Assembly: GCA_025054775.1 (NCBI GenBank)
Contig: JANWZA010000016.1
Coordinates: 1-52,205, forward strand
Direction of reading: 5' to 3'
Length of the DNA: 52,205 nucleotides
Origin: Microscillaceae bacterium
GTDB lineage: Bacteria > Bacteroidota > Bacteroidia > Cytophagales > Microscillaceae
Shown here: piece after piece, positions 1 through 51,513 of the stretch
Numbering within the stretch: the stretch's first letter is position 1
How the letters are laid out: every line of letters starts with the position of its first letter
Translations under genes and position numbers: made by a program
Notes under the pieces: generated by a model
Told to the model about the DNA's origin: nothing
Database searches by the model: none
What the model saw: the letters and a program-made list of their open reading frames with translations, nothing else

Positions 1-719
1 TCTAATCCTGTATTAAACTCTTTTTTGTCTTTGGCTTTGGCATACCAATCGGCATCATAATAAGTTTGACGAATTAAGGCAATAGCTCCCATTAAAGAAC
101 TTGGATAGTCTTGTGGAGAACTTCCTTTGTTAAAGGAAAAATGCGTAGTTGCTTTTCCTTTCAAAACTACTTCTTGAGCTTTGCCCTCTGCCAAAGAAAC
201 AACGGCACCTGTACCGCGCAAAATGCCGTCAGGATTGTGTGTAAGCACTGTACCGAAGCCTAATTTGCGTAAAATTTCGGCTTGGGTATTATCAGGCACA
301 AATATTTGTTCAGCTACGTTTTCTGCTTTCAGGGCTTGATTCCAGGCGGTAGCAGTGCGGTTAGCGTTTTCAGTGGGTTCGGCTCCTGAAAGATTAGTGG
401 GTCGCTTTACAGGAGGCATACCATACGTGCTGTACAAATCAATTAGAGAAGGATAAATAAATTTTCCTTTCAAATCAATTACAGTGGCTTCTTTAGGCAA
501 AGGAAGGTTTTTTCCTACAGCTTGCACCGTGCCGTTTTTAATAATCAGTGTTCCGTTTTCTATTTTGGTTTGATAGTCAGTAAAAATAGTAGCATTGATA
601 AAAGCGTAATGCCTTTGGCGTTCATCTTGTACACCATTAGTAGGAAATGTGGTTTGGGCTTGTAAGTAAGTGTAAAAATTTACAAAAATAAAAGCAAAAA
701 GTAAGGTGTTTTTTTTCAT
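1..719 (-). CDS. Amidohydrolase-family protein, secreted (5' part only)
   Basis: The gene starts at ATG 717-719 on the minus strand and runs off the left edge, so about 239 N-terminal residues are visible. Residues 1-22 form a signal peptide (MKKNTLLFAFIFVNFYTYLQAQ). Next comes the composite beta-sandwich typical of amidohydrolases: a strand with INATIFTDYQTKIENGTLIIKNG, then VIDLKGKFIYPSLIDLYSTYG. In canonical members this last segment carries the metal-binding HxH; here it reads LYSTYG, so the first metal site looks absent, as I recall for some large Bacteroidota imidazolonepropionase-like exported proteins. The catalytic half lies outside the window. It is divergent from pnp, with a -7-like box about 50 bp upstream. 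Substrate unknown. Confidence 0.8.
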   Translation of the reverse strand, partial: MKKNTLLFAFIFVNFYTYLQAQTTFPTNGVQDERQRHYAFINATIFTDYQTKIENGTLIIKNGTVQAVGKNLPLPKEATVIDLKGKFIYPSLIDLYSTYGMPPVKRPTNLSGAEPTENANRTATAWNQALKAENVAEQIFVPDNTQAEILRKLGFGTVLTHNPDGILRGTGAVVSLAEGKAQEVVLKGKATTHFSFNKGSSPQDYPSSLMGAIALIRQTYYDADWYAKAKDKKEFNTGL

Positions 720-772
720 AGGTTGTATTGCATAAGTAAATAAACTTTAACTTTAGTAATTAGTTTTAAGAA

Positions 773-780
773 CAAAAGTA
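773..780 (-). promoter_or_regulatory. Possible -7 box for the amidohydrolase gene
   Basis: On the minus strand this reads TACTTTTG, matching the Bacteroidota -7 consensus TAnnTTTG, about 54 bp upstream of the ATG. No TTTG lies at the usual 19-21 bp further upstream, so only the -7 half is supported. Confidence 0.4.
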
Positions 781-879
781 AAATTTTTTTTTATAAATTA
801 TGCCTCAATAAAAGACATTTGAAAATATCTAACCCAAGTAATTAAAACTTAGAAGCTATTTAGATAAATACATTTATCA

Positions 880-1263
880 GAAGTTAAGTTTTTGATGTGT
901 AATGTCAATGTTTTAATAGTTTAGGGTAAGATCTTAATAGTAAATGTTAAGGTTTCGATGGTTAATGTTAAAGTTTTATTATCTAATGTTAAGTTTTTAA
1001 CGCTATATGTTAGTATTTTAATGTTAAATGTTAATACTTTAATATAATTTTTTAAGGTTTTTAGATCAATGTTAAATTTATATTATTTATTACTAAATGT
1101 TTACTATTAAAAACAAAATACTTGCTATTAAATAATAAACATTTAATAATAAAAGTTAAACATTAAGTATTTATAATTTAATATTTAACATTAAAAACTT
1201 AATTTTTACTATTAAAAATTAGATATTGATTACTAAAAAGTAGATATTAAACATAGAAAACAC
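880..1263. repeat. Degenerate 21-bp tandem array with central orientation switch
   Basis: From 880 to about 1068 the sequence follows a strict 21-bp period. Units begin at 880, 901, 922, 943, 964, 985, 1006, 1027 and 1048; most start with AATGTTAAG or close to it and continue with TTTTTAATAGT-like sequence. From 1096 to 1263 the same period continues (1096, 1117, 1138, 1159, 1180, 1201, 1222, 1243), but the units are the reverse complement: read on the minus strand they again give TTTTTAATAGT followed by AAATATT or AATGTT. The array is therefore two opposed blocks of about eight units around a roughly 27-bp centre. Units are diverged (often 60-80 percent alike by eye) and there are no spacers, so it is not CRISPR. 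Confidence 0.75.
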
Positions 1264-1547
1264 AACCTTTATTACTCAATTGTTTGTTAATAGATTTCAT
1301 AGCTATGGCTTTTTGCAAAGGTAACCAAAACTTATTTTTAGGGGGTTGTTAGTAGTTAAGCAATGCTAATTATCGTTTATCTAATACCCAAAAGTTTGAT
1401 TTGCATACTTACCGACTAATAAGCTTATTGACTACCTTGCTTAACAAATTAAATAATCACGACGCAATTTTGTTGCAAAAGGGCTTGGAGCACTTGTTAC
1501 TTATAGTCAGCTTTTAGATAGGCTTTCAAAGCAAAACGACTCAAAAC

Positions 1548-1578
1548 TTTGCTTTTCCATAAAAAACTACTAAATTTG
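1548..1578 (+). promoter_or_regulatory. Promoter of pnp
   Basis: TTTG at 1548-1551, a 19-bp spacer and TAAATTTG at 1571-1578 match the Bacteroidota TTTG / TAnnTTTG promoter. Transcription would start around 1585, leaving a leader of about 30 nt before the ATG at 1616. Confidence 0.65.
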
Positions 1579-1615
1579 CTAAATTATAGTTGAAAAATAA
1601 AAACGAAGAAAGAGA

Positions 1616-3805
1616 ATGTTCAAAATCCATAGAAAAACCATACGCTTTGCCGATGGTCGTGAAATCCTAATTGAGACAGGCAAACTTGCACGCCAAGCCG
1701 ATGGAGCAGTAGTCCTTAAAATGGGAGCTACAATGCTTCTAGCCACAGTGGTTTCTGTAAAAGAAGCCAAAGAAGATATAGACTTTATGCCCCTCTCGGT
1801 AGATTATCAAGAGAAATTCGCTGCAGCAGGGCGTATCCCTGGCGGCTTCAGCAAACGAGAAGGAAAACTCTCCGATTATGAAATCCTAGTAAGCCGCTTG
1901 GTGGATAGAGCTATACGCCCTCTTTTTCCAGAAGACTACCATGCCGAAACACAAATCAACATCTATCTTATTTCTGCTGACCCGCAAATCCAACCCGATG
2001 CCTTAGCCGCCTTAGCCGCCTCATGTGCTATCGCCGTTTCGGATATCCCCTTTGAAGCCCCCATCTCCGAAGTCCGTGTAGCACGCATTGACGGAAAATA
2101 CGTAATCAATCCCCCTACCGATGACCTGCAACGGGCTGACCTTGACCTCATCGTAGGAGCTACCTATGACTCCATTCTCATGGTAGAAGGAGAAATGAAG
2201 GAAGTACCCGAAGAGGTTATGATTGAGGCAATCCGCACCGCCCACGAAGCCATTAAAATCCACTGCCTCACCCAAAAAGAACTCATGGAAGAACTAGGAA
2301 CTACCCAAAAACGTGCCTACTCTCACGAAAAAAACGACGAAGAGCTACAAACCCGCATGAAAAACGAACTTTTTGACAAAATCTACGAAGTTGCCAAAGC
2401 CGCCAACCCCTCTAAAAGCGAACGCACAAAAGCCTTCAATGCACTCAAAGAAGCTTTCATTGAGCAACTTAAACAAGAAAATGCCAAAAATCCCGACTAT
2501 CAAGTCCCTGAAATACTTATTAACCGCTACTTCCACAAAATCCAAAAAGAAGCCTGCCGAAAGCTAGCCCTTAAAGACAAAAAACGCCTCGATGGACGAG
2601 CCTTCGACGAAATCCGCCCCATCCAATGCGAAATAGACTATCTACCCGCCGCTCACGGCTCAGCTCTCTTCACCCGCGGAGAAACACAATCGCTTACCAC
2701 CGTAACCCTAGGAACCAAAATCAACGAACAAATGATAGATACCGCCATGGAAACCTCATCAAGTAAATTTATGCTACATTACAACTTCCCCTCCTTCTCC
2801 ACAGGAGAAGCCAAACCCAACCGCGCCCCCGGTAGACGTGAAATCGGACACGGAAACCTCGCCTTCCGTGCCTTAAGACCCGTAATGCCCCCCGACGAAG
2901 AAAACCCCTACACCATCCGTGTAGTTTCTGACATCTTGGAGTCCAACGGTTCTTCTTCTATGGCTACCGTGTGTGCAGGCGCGCTAGCTCTCATGGATGC
3001 AGGCATACCTATTAAAGCTCCCGTCGCAGGAATCGCTATGGGACTTATCTTCGATGAGGAAACCAAGGAATATGCCGTTCTCTCAGACATCCTAGGAGAC
3101 GAAGACCACTTAGGTAACATGGACTTCAAAGTCGCAGGAACTGCCAAAGGAATTACCGCCTGCCAAATGGATATCAAATTAAGCGGCTTATCTTATGAAA
3201 TCTTATCTCAAGCCCTCGAACAAGCCAAAAAAGGAAGATTACATATCCTTGATGTCATGAACCAAACCATCGCCCAACCCCGCCCTGACCTTAAACCCCA
3301 CGCCCCACGCTCCCTAATCATGCGTATTGATCGCGACTATATCGGTGCAGTTATCGGACCAGGAGGTAAGGTAATTCAAGAAATTCAACGTGCCACAGGA
3401 GCCACCATCACCATAGAAGAAAAAGACAATGCAGGTTGGGTAAACATCTTTGCTACAAGCCAAGCAGCTATGCAAAAAGCTGAAAAATGGATTAAAGGCA
3501 TTATTACAGAGCCTGAATTAGGCAACATTTACGAAGGAAAGGTCAAAAGCATTACACCCTTTGGAGCATTCGTAGAATTTCTCCCAGGAAGAGAAGGGCT
3601 ACTGCATATTTCAGATGTAAAGTGGGAAAAGCTACCCACCTTAGAGGGTATTTTAGAGGTAGGGGAAGAGGTTACCGTAAAATTAGTAGAAATAGACAAA
3701 AAGGCAGGCAAGTTCAGACTCTCACGCAAGGTGCTAATTCCTAAACCCGAAAGTGGAAGAAAATTACAAAATAATAGCCACGGTAGTTCTAAACGCAGAA
3801 AGTAA
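1616..3805 (+). CDS. pnp: Polyribonucleotide nucleotidyltransferase (PNPase)
   Basis: This is a cytoplasmic 3'-5' phosphorolytic exoribonuclease that degrades RNA to nucleoside diphosphates and can add tails in reverse. The 729 residues show the full family order: RNase PH-like domain 1 (about 10-145), a helical linker (about 220-330), RNase PH-like domain 2 (about 335-470, with [24 protein letters not shown] sequence), a KH domain (about 560-628, with the [11 protein letters not shown] loop) and an S1 domain (about 635-706, [15 protein letters not shown] and GLLHISD), then a short basic tail. The start ATG follows AAGAAAGAG. A consensus promoter sits just upstream. rpsO, a frequent upstream neighbour of pnp in other bacteria, is not adjacent. 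The first three quarters are clearly richer in C-ending codons than the last 450 bp and than the neighbouring genes. Confidence 0.98.
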
Positions 3806-31546: not shown

Positions 31547-32032
31547 TTACAATTTTGCAAGCATACTCTTACATTCAGCCTCAAAATTTTTGGCTTTGGC
31601 TTTTATTTTTTCGTGTTCTTTTTTCATTTTTTCGTGTTCCGCATTCAACTCTTGGTGTTTTTTTATGAATTCTGCATCAGGTAATTCTCCTCTTTGATGA
31701 GCTGCTGTAATTTGCTCGTGATTATTCAAAAGAGCTTCATGGTTTTGCATCATAGCCAAGAAGTCTTGGAGCATGATTTTATGGTAGTTAGCTAACTGCT
31801 CGTAAGTACTGTCTGTGCCTTTTAGTTTAGCGCGCACTTGTTGGTCTAATTCATTAAAGGCTTTTTCCATCTCCTTATGTTCTTTTTCCATGGCCTCATG
31901 CTCTTCTATCAATTCGTCGTGTTCTTTAGATAGTTTTTCATTCAAGTCTTGTGAACTTTCTGAAGTTTTGCTACAAGCCAAAGTAAGATACATAACCCAG
32001 ATGGTAAGCAAAAGGTAGTGATATTGTTTCAT
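31547..32032 (-). CDS. Small lipoprotein with histidine-heptad coiled coil
   Basis: 161 residues. MKQYHYLLLTIWVMYLTLAC has a lipobox with Cys20 as lipid anchor. The mature part is almost entirely charged helix: LSKEHDELIEEHEAMEKEHKEMEKAF (34-59) and a second block 120-150. His residues fall exactly seven apart: 38, 45, 52; then 84, 98, 105, 112, 126, 133, 140, all in one register. The two His blocks flank a middle segment with RGELPD, which could be a turn, suggesting an antiparallel helical hairpin with a stripe of His/Glu. Function unknown; metal binding or a periplasmic spacer are options. A tRNA gene with its own promoter lies downstream. Confidence 0.8.
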   Translation of the reverse strand: MKQYHYLLLTIWVMYLTLACSKTSESSQDLNEKLSKEHDELIEEHEAMEKEHKEMEKAFNELDQQVRAKLKGTDSTYEQLANYHKIMLQDFLAMMQNHEALLNNHEQITAAHQRGELPDAEFIKKHQELNAEHEKMKKEHEKIKAKAKNFEAECKSMLAKL

Positions 32033-50379: not shown

Positions 50380-51513
50380 TTATCTTTTGTCAGGTAATAC
50401 TAACTCGTCTTGTTCGGAAAGTCCTGAAACAATTTGTACAAATTCTAAATCTTCTACTCCGATTTTCACCTCCTTGCGTCGTGGTTGATTTTTAAGTTGC
50501 ACATAAGCCTTATCTCCTTCTTTTTTGAGATAAATTTTAGGAATAACTAAGGCTTTTTCTACATTTTTGATAATAATATTTGCCTCAACCGAAATACCTG
50601 AAAGTATTTTATTAAGAAGTTCAGAAGAATTGATATTCAAATCAACTAATACTTTTACGGTTTTGCTTGCGGTAGATACAGTGGGATAAATTTCTTTAAC
50701 AGTTCCGTTAAGAAATTGTGGTATAGCGTCGGCTTTGAGCAATACTGCTTGTCCGAGTTGTATTTTGTAAATATCATCCTCATCTACCATCACCTCAGCC
50801 TCAAAATTTTGCACATCCCCAATTTCATAAAGTAATGCATTTTGAAAAACTAATTCTCCTTTTTTAGGAAAAATGTTATAAATTTTACCCTTCTGCTCAG
50901 CTTTGATGTTAAAATCCTCTTGGTTAGCTACAAGAGCTTGCCAAGAGAGCAGGGCATTGAGAGAGCGATTTTCTAGGTCCTCGCGTGAACTATTGAGCAA
51001 ATTTTGAGCTTTTTCGTAATTACGTTTAGCTATTTCGTATTGCGTTTTGGCTTGGTCTAATTGGTTGGCAGTAGTAGCGTTTTGTTGGTACAAATTGAGC
51101 AAACGAAAGTAATTCACCGAGTCATTTTGTAACTTAATGCGTGCATTTTCTACGTCATTTCTTAGGGCTTGGAGAGTAGCCTGGTCAAGGCGAGCATTTT
51201 TTTGGGCTAATTTGGCGGTATTTTCACTAATTTGTATGTTCTTTTCGTTAGTTTTGTTAGCAATTTGTAAGATAGGGGTATTGATGTCTACCTCTTGTCC
51301 TACTTTGACAAAGATATTAGTAACATAACCTACCACTTTACTTGCAACAACTTGTCTGTTTTTAGGATAAATTTTGCCTGAAGCATATACTGCTTCAATA
51401 ATTTTACGATAATGCGGTTGCACCGAAGTTTGTTTGGTTTGGCAGGCAGTAAAAAGCAAAAAAACCAACACTGAAAAGCGAAGGATTTTTTGGTACAAAG
51501 TCTTAAAAATCAT
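50380..51513 (-). CDS. Efflux periplasmic adaptor (HlyD/RND-ABC membrane fusion protein)
   Basis: 377 residues. The signal ends in LLFTACQ, with lipobox Cys24, so an inner-membrane lipoprotein adaptor is likely. The order fits membrane fusion proteins: beta-strand VYASGKIYPKNRQVVASKVVGYVTNIFVKVGQEV (lipoyl half), a long helical hairpin (about residues 100-200; IQISENTAKLAQKNARLDQATLQ... and NQLDQAKTQYEIAKRNYEKAQNLL), a second lipoyl half (IKAEQKGKIYNIFPKKGELV), a beta-barrel and a C-terminal part ending LVLPDKR. No RND or ABC partner is adjacent in the window; a MacB-type permease lies 39 kb away. It follows the universal-stress-protein gene after 12 bp. Confidence 0.9.
   Translation of the reverse strand: MIFKTLYQKILRFSVLVFLLFTACQTKQTSVQPHYRKIIEAVYASGKIYPKNRQVVASKVVGYVTNIFVKVGQEVDINTPILQIANKTNEKNIQISENTAKLAQKNARLDQATLQALRNDVENARIKLQNDSVNYFRLLNLYQQNATTANQLDQAKTQYEIAKRNYEKAQNLLNSSREDLENRSLNALLSWQALVANQEDFNIKAEQKGKIYNIFPKKGELVFQNALLYEIGDVQNFEAEVMVDEDDIYKIQLGQAVLLKADAIPQFLNGTVKEIYPTVSTASKTVKVLVDLNINSSELLNKILSGISVEANIIIKNVEKALVIPKIYLKKEGDKAYVQLKNQPRRKEVKIGVEDLEFVQIVSGLSEQDELVLPDKR

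Follow-up and report, generated by a model that had tools for sequence, protein, structure and literature searches.

BrickBuilt elements of Porphyromonas gingivalis are built on a 23-nt unit, and most copies carry a leader and/or a tail bearing terminal inverted repeats (PMC4596501). The parS centromere of plasmid pSM19035 comprises six sites of 7 to 10 heptads (WATCACW) in mixed orientation, which are bound by the RHH protein Omega/ParB, and its DNA is described as not significantly curved (PMC9499535). ParR/parC centromeres consist of direct repeats of 10, 11, 17 or 20 bp depending on the plasmid, and their DNA wraps ParR in a solenoid (PMC9426499). Direct repeats of the heptamer TAACTGA are intergenic, occur also in five Bacteroidetes and, in the main genome of that study, lie mostly just before start codons (PMC4679880). 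Helically phased A-tracts have been linked to nucleoid proteins as a genome-wide statistical signal (PMC3940949). The window analyzed here, 52,205 nucleotides from a Microscillaceae bacterium, contains an array of 21-bp units that flips at its centre. As its preliminary description had supposed, no named family matched it: such flipped 21-bp arrays were not described in the literature searched, which included few subscription papers, and Rfam gave no match up to E 1 over window positions 1 to 3000.

Structure of the window array

TRF analysis of positions 880 to 1263 gave a 21-bp period on both flanks of the flip. The lag-21 identity of this block was 0.64, compared with 0.36 ± 0.025 (maximum 0.46) in 1000 dinucleotide shuffles. 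In addition, the array scored 90 over six in-phase units, whereas 1000 shuffles of its core scored −1.1 or less; the scoring profile consisted of 21 columns derived from the remaining 16 flipped arrays of this genome, without the window array, and the unit positions behind it came from a joint fit in which the window array took part. The flipped 21-bp array noted in the preliminary description is thus stronger than shuffled sequence.

The forward half (880–1047, + strand) contains eight profile-scored 21-bp units starting at 880, 901 and so on to 1027, and belongs to subtype alpha, with A in column 7 in 8/8 units. On the forward lattice, positions as far as 1047 scored +6 to +22, the stretch 1048–1068 scored −6.6 and later positions −12 to −31. 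Nine direct units had been proposed at 880–1068; eight of them were found, but the ninth is in step without scoring as a unit. The reversed half (1081–1248, − strand) also contains eight 21-bp units, starting at 1081, 1102 and so on to 1228, and belongs to subtype beta (column 7 was T in 6/8 and A in 2/8). Reversed-lattice scores were −5 to −28 before 1081 and +8 to +18 across 1081–1248, and a weak partial last unit at 1249–1269 (− strand) scored 4.8 in the joint fit and 2.9 with the profile of the other arrays. The earlier count of about eight reversed units at 1096–1263 therefore holds in number, but the block begins at 1081 and the unit at 1249 is weak. The array lies between divergent genes: on the left, a gene that is incomplete at the window edge (3–719, − strand) with a NagA_N composite domain (27.2 bits against a cut-off of 27), and on the right the gene of a 729-aa polynucleotide phosphorylase (pnp; 1616–3805, + strand) with RNase_PH, RNase_PH_C, PNPase, KH and S1 domains. 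Repeats of about two copies, with period 21 and a different sequence, were listed by TRF at 31601–31647, 31861–31905 and 51007–51047 of the window.

A genome-wide set of arrays

The preliminary description had suggested searching the same genome for the 21-bp profile. In this genome (3.01 Mb, 65 contigs), positions 860 to 1280 as the query gave at least 46 matches (40 of 91 candidates scored), and a sequence-only model, for which 150 of 1913 candidates were scored, gave at least 123 matches at E ≤ 0.01, including its training pieces, which match by construction. The model was built from 33 chosen well-scoring array pieces, 32 with four units and one with three. At least 18 similar arrays, a lower bound, were found in 18 places on 15 contigs between unrelated genes, and the window array is one member of this genome-wide set. 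In 868 kb of the genome's own DNA (overlaps included), a six-unit score above 25 was obtained for the 18 arrays and for two minor runs, C34:78.2 kb and C32:68.4 kb, and for no others; a further minor run lies at C3:35.0 kb.

Expectation maximization over the 18 arrays gave a consensus unit that can be written AATGTTWANTTTTTAATRNTW. Column 4 was G in 69–70% of units, with G making up 11% of unit bases overall, and columns 9 and 19 were almost free; the unit columns are base-specific, beyond AT content or curvature alone. Purine/pyrimidine identity at lag 21 was 0.83. A weaker heptamer sub-period was present, base identity being 0.52 at lags 7 and 14, 0.67 at lag 21 and 0.64 at lag 84. Some units scored near zero or negative in the joint fit, and 28-bp steps (7-bp shifts) were seen at the ends of arrays L021 and L013.

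A forward run was followed by a reversed run in 17 of the 18 arrays, the C6 array having no clear flip, and the opposite order was found in 0/18. Weak isolated units of either sense occurred outside the runs in several arrays, such as L012, in which two forward units follow the reversed run. Between the last forward unit and the first reversed one, the step was 34 bp in 15/17 arrays and 55 bp (34 + 21) in another; in the window it was 54 bp, and the junction there (1048–1080) amounts to one in-step stretch that no longer scores as a unit, minus one base. With the flip step the same in 15/17, the arrays keep one 21-bp lattice across the flip, centred on TAATATTA. The 21-column profiles of the forward and reversed halves were near-identical and differed mainly in columns 7, 10 and 21. 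The C6 array was left out of all unit-level tests (similarity, column 7, stops, subtypes, flip step, spacing, index-wise likeness and codon position).

Spacing and likeness of the units

In 34 half-array cores totalling 5754 bp, 1480 bases (26%) were off consensus. Indels in free bacterial DNA number about 1/10 to 1/20 of substitutions, which would give dozens in these cores. A cyclic alignment allowing indels found no shift more than 10 bp from a core end at penalty 7 in the 34 cores, a comparison that is fair for cores only, their edges having been placed where the phase holds. Inner events were one +1/−1 pair at penalty 6 and three at penalty 5, all of which cancel. Planted single-base indels were detected in 66/66 cases at penalty 7 and 65/66 at penalty 6. 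The lone uncompensated exception was a 7-bp shift about 22 bp inside the forward half of L021, near its outer end; array ends that lose score, or that shift by 7 bp as in L021 and L013, had been trimmed before the core test. When 63 bp of outer flank was added, shifts appeared in 27/34 halves, with 59 events in the outer flank, as expected of flanking DNA.

The identity of adjacent units within a half was 0.683, that of units 4 to 6 apart was 0.658, and that of units from different arrays was 0.62–0.63. Between arrays, units equally far from the flip were only marginally more alike than those at unequal positions (p 0.065–0.37, four tests). The present likeness is not accounted for by recent slippage or by recent duplication of whole arrays, and the latter was rejected on the weakness of the index-wise excess. 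Upkeep of each unit individually explains the likeness more simply than recent copying.

Two subtypes and the direction of the arrays

Column 7 agreed at 0.77 within a half, 0.23 between the halves of one array and 0.47 between arrays, and its majority base differed between the halves in 15/17 arrays (exceptions, C23:67 kb and C64). When the units of the 15 clear arrays were sorted by column 7, which then differs by construction, columns 10, 19 and 21 also differed by subtype (p 4e-9, 2e-8 and 4e-10, respectively, with units treated as independent), and column 9 did so less (p 1.4e-3). C64 and C15, which have a mixed column 7, were left out of the subtype, index-wise likeness and codon-position tests. 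In most arrays, then, each half has its own unit subtype, which gives the array a direction.

Array orientation agreed with fourfold-site skew on 12/14 contigs, and on 9/9 where |z| ≥ 1.5; the two that disagreed were the window's own contig C25 (z −1.0) and C3 (z 0.7). Over 17 arrays, orientation correlated with GC skew (rho 0.55, p 0.024) and third-position skew (rho 0.71, p 0.0014), and the value for gene-strand bias was rho −0.32 (p 0.21). At fourfold sites with the coding bias removed, 14/16 arrays agreed (rho 0.66, p 0.005; T/A term rho 0.25, p 0.35), the two C32 arrays being merged and C6 left out; the skew p values come from several forms tried and are uncorrected. On each of the three contigs with two arrays, both had the same orientation, and tandem gene direction showed a similar trend (8/10 tandem-flanked arrays). 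Replication-strand markers conflict: rpoB (C40) agrees and ribosomal protein L2 (C65, a contig with no array) is opposite (z 1.3), and 16S was not found in the own-genome search. These results indicate that array direction tends to follow local strand composition, the window being an exception.

Predicted curvature

The preliminary description had supposed that T-tracts phased by the 21-bp step might curve the DNA, and the models agree with it. With two dinucleotide wedge models, the mean predicted bend lay above the mean of 60 shuffles in 17/18 arrays in both models, the exception being C6; the mean z over the 18 arrays was 2.8 and 2.0. Four-base A/T tracts had a raw, unshuffled phase concentration of 0.59 at 10.5 bp, the highest among six periods tried, and 0.17 at 10 and 11 bp. 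A pure heptamer repeat had almost no predicted bend. With tract phasing and a modelled bend above that of composition, the arrays would count as intrinsically curved phased A-tract DNA.

Genes around the arrays

Pfam matches were obtained for 33 of the 34 proteins adjacent to the arrays. They were varied and mostly of housekeeping types, including TsaD, an AIR-synthase-domain (PurL-like) protein, a cytidylyltransferase-like protein, NAD-dependent DNA ligase, a class II tRNA synthetase, a Mur ligase, quinolinate phosphoribosyltransferase, PNPase, a ClpB/ClpA-like AAA protein, a TonB receptor, a Uma2-type protein, a Type ISP specificity domain and a kinase; no function common to the 34 was seen with Pfam. 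Among the 17 arrays with two neighbours, the genes were divergent in 4, convergent in 3 and tandem in 10, with a 127-aa ORF (L009) and a 92-aa ORF (L014) set aside; including these, the counts were 5, 4 and 8. The divergent arrangement noted at the window is thus real there (719–3, 1616–3805) but not general.

At L014:4367-9121 (C32), an acrB-type and an hlyD-type gene on the same strand are separated by an array, which a transcript of this likely operon would need to cross. Open frames of 103 to 127 codons enter or traverse arrays at L009 3926–4243, L012 4086–4421, L014 7635–7946 and L017 3879–4262. Such long frames are possible in the arrays because the unit length, 21, is a multiple of three, and an annotation pipeline could call spurious genes there. 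In view of these open frames, a role of heptamer arrays in supplying stop codons in every frame was discarded.

Relatives and wider searches

A match to the window array was found in 9 of 36 other genomes drawn, none of which is from the same genus, and loci were read in six of the nine (G003, G007 and G016 were left out). The search of relatives suggested in the preliminary description thus gave matches, but the diverged, in-register flipped form was found only in the own genome among the loci read. G002, G011 and G033 contained satellites with the same core heptamer. In addition, G008, G011, G002 and G013 contained 21- or 42-bp arrays of other units, often near-identical inside an array (L041, L042, L045/L095, L089 and L090 in G008; L098 and L099 in G011; L101 in G002; L046, L143 and L144 in G013). 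The G013 unit resembles, by eye, the reversed unit of the own genome, and in G008, G013 and G014 some loci showed AT-rich DNA with no evident array. The family favours periods in multiples of 7, often 21. No array was present upstream of pnp in the 10 relatives examined out of 14 loci, two of them with about 0.5 kb upstream (L157–L160 were left out, L160 having 1.5 kb upstream), and a conserved place upstream of pnp was therefore rejected.

A 37-base degenerate pattern gave 35 stretches, with one match each, in a genome collection of 84,980 species; the own genome was not among the matches. All 35 were scored; seven scored above 45 over six in-phase units, and all seven were heptamer satellites and not 21-bp arrays. 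The same pattern gave one match in IMG/VR, at a background score. Its sensitivity is limited, as a close form hit 11/17 own-genome loci and missed the window array. Heptamer satellites (for example of TAAACAT, TTAATGC, AATATTT and AAATAAT) were seen in Prevotella, Edwardsiella, Acinetobacter, Clostridium and Hydromonas records (L065, L066, L071, L073, L082, L084 and L086, besides the G002, G011 and G033 loci).

Interpretation of the arrays

The arrays may be sites for a putative base-specific DNA-bending or DNA-wrapping protein with an architectural rather than a gene-specific role, a reading to which we give about an even chance. We infer that such a protein would load side by side and cooperatively on the 21-bp lattice (two helical turns) and, once loaded, would bend or wrap the array DNA. 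The halves would offer its site in opposite directions on the common lattice, mostly as two subtypes; because of the opposed halves and, in most arrays, the two subtypes, the nucleoprotein complex would be double-armed and directional. Its role would probably be in chromosome architecture or segregation rather than in the control of one gene. Computed from the assembly were the genome-wide set of at least 18 arrays, the core phase with its near absence of indels, the base-specific columns, the fixed flip register, the predicted bend and the two subtypes; the first five of these, together with the small excess of likeness within arrays over that between arrays, the varied neighbours in all gene orientations and the array inside a likely operon, were counted in favour of protein sites. 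Counted against them were the tandem arrays of 7, 21 and 42 bp that relatives build from other units, many of them near-identical inside an array, which show a mutational bias to such periods in the family, and also the outer-flank shifts, the 7-bp shift in L021, the weak index-wise likeness, the units near or below zero and the lack of a pnp-upstream array in the relatives examined. We put forward only tentatively, and regard as rather doubtful, the further proposal that a putative dedicated protein loads the approximately 18 polar double-armed arrays as a new class of chromosomal site, whose subtypes (alpha first, beta second) would point along the replication direction.

The main rival is a decayed non-functional minisatellite family, in which AAATGTT-like heptamers became 21-bp higher-order repeats by slippage and are now drifting. 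It would suit the heptamer sub-period (identity 0.52 at lags 7 and 14), the 7-bp shifts at array ends, the same-core heptamer satellites of G002, G011 and G033, the 21- and 42-bp arrays of G008, G011, G002 and G013, and the TAACTGA-type heptamer arrays in print for Bacteroidetes (PMC4679880). However, slippage and drift predict the reverse of four features, which therefore count against it: no uncompensated core shift bar one 7-bp step beside 1480 differences, a constant flip direction with a fixed register, neighbouring units that are little alike, and two subtypes split by half. We hold this origin to be possible, with a clearly minor share of the probability. A transcriptional regulatory array for the adjacent genes, such as a curved upstream element or a multi-site operator serving pnp and the divergent gene at the window, is unlikely: it agrees with the intergenic placement, the divergent genes at the window and the 13 promoter-like matches in 700–1650 (6.0 ± 2.2 in shuffles; consensus matches only), but only 4/17 arrays lie between divergent genes, with 3 convergent and 10 tandem, and the neighbours have no common function, so that a promoter-only reading is disfavoured.

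It is most improbable that the arrays are remnants of a mobile element, that is, a BrickBuilt-like MITE with an internal minisatellite. The copy number is similar (19 BrickBuilt in P. gingivalis ATCC 33277), as is the intergenic placement, and 3/19 BrickBuilt lack both leader and tail, so that missing ends alone do not exclude it (PMC4596501); however, the 600-bp flanks of the 17 flipped arrays have only matches of 41 bp or less in common (best E 0.002), and index-wise homology between arrays is not clear. We attach equally slight probability to an RNA hairpin, a cruciform, a bidirectional terminator or a coding sequence. A fold of the two blocks had been proposed in the preliminary description, and an inverted pair of 100 nt (901–1000/1128–1227) is complementary at 72%. 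Mirror-paired units barely exceed random pairs (0.620 v 0.606, p 0.005), however, and column 7 mispairs systematically, agreeing in 23% of forward/reversed comparisons within an array against 47% between arrays; the arms are not kept complementary, and a hairpin or cruciform was rejected. No terminator-like site was found in 700–1650, and the Rfam result above also argues against an RNA element. In most arrays, few stops occur in one frame of each strand, and third codon positions in the alpha half are, by a narrow margin, the least conserved (0.709 v 0.718 and 0.828). On the other hand, the mean number of stops is the same on both strands (5.06 and 5.06), and shuffling the columns within arrays does not raise it (4.90 and 4.96). 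It is higher for units sampled across all arrays (7.6 and 8.5), the lower real number arising because columns such as 7 are uniform within a half. Third positions in the beta half are the most conserved ones, whichever strand is read (0.812). A protein-coding repeat was therefore rejected, since stops are not fewer, neither strand is favoured and third positions are not the freest.

If a protein does occupy the arrays, they would be a countable, sequence-defined chromosome-organizing site and a direct handle on that protein, with built-in controls in the fixed phase, the two arm types, the direction and the approximately 18 copies. Even as a satellite family they would be unusual, the 21-bp step having been kept through heavy base change.

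Comparison with known systems

The arrays resemble BrickBuilt in being a dispersed, intergenic, short-period tandem repeat, which is present in 19 copies per genome in that case; their period is 21 bp, not 23, they flip in register at the middle, and they have no common flanks (PMC4596501). A common leader or tail with terminal inverted repeats was not found in the 600-bp flanks of 17 arrays, the longest match being 41 bp. As in pSM19035 parS, sites based on 7 bp are contiguous and occur in direct and inverted orientation, the unit here being three heptamers (PMC9499535). In contrast to parS, the arrays are based on another heptamer within a higher-order unit of 21 bp, flip once, have predicted curvature and lie in 18 places (PMC9499535). 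The heptamer lattice is present, but the unit profile is without ATCAC. Sites of the pSM19035 type overlap the promoters of the par genes that belong to them, and no par genes were seen among the 34 adjacent proteins. ParR/parC centromeres are likewise arrays of short direct repeats; they are plasmid-borne and upstream of parM, whereas the present arrays are multiple and inverted (PMC9426499), and no ParM was found by Pfam among the 34 immediate neighbours, so that they do not fall under parC.

The TAACTGA repeats are also dispersed intergenic heptamer repeats, but they consist of one uniform heptamer in direct orientation, whereas the present arrays have 21-bp units in both senses regardless of gene orientation (PMC4679880); the units are not uniform 7-bp repeats, identity being 0.67 at lag 21 v 0.52 at lag 7. 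Finally, the arrays share with the phased A-tract signal A/T runs near the helical repeat that are associated with curvature, which here is predicted, and they differ from it in being discrete and in having base-specific, oriented units (PMC3940949).
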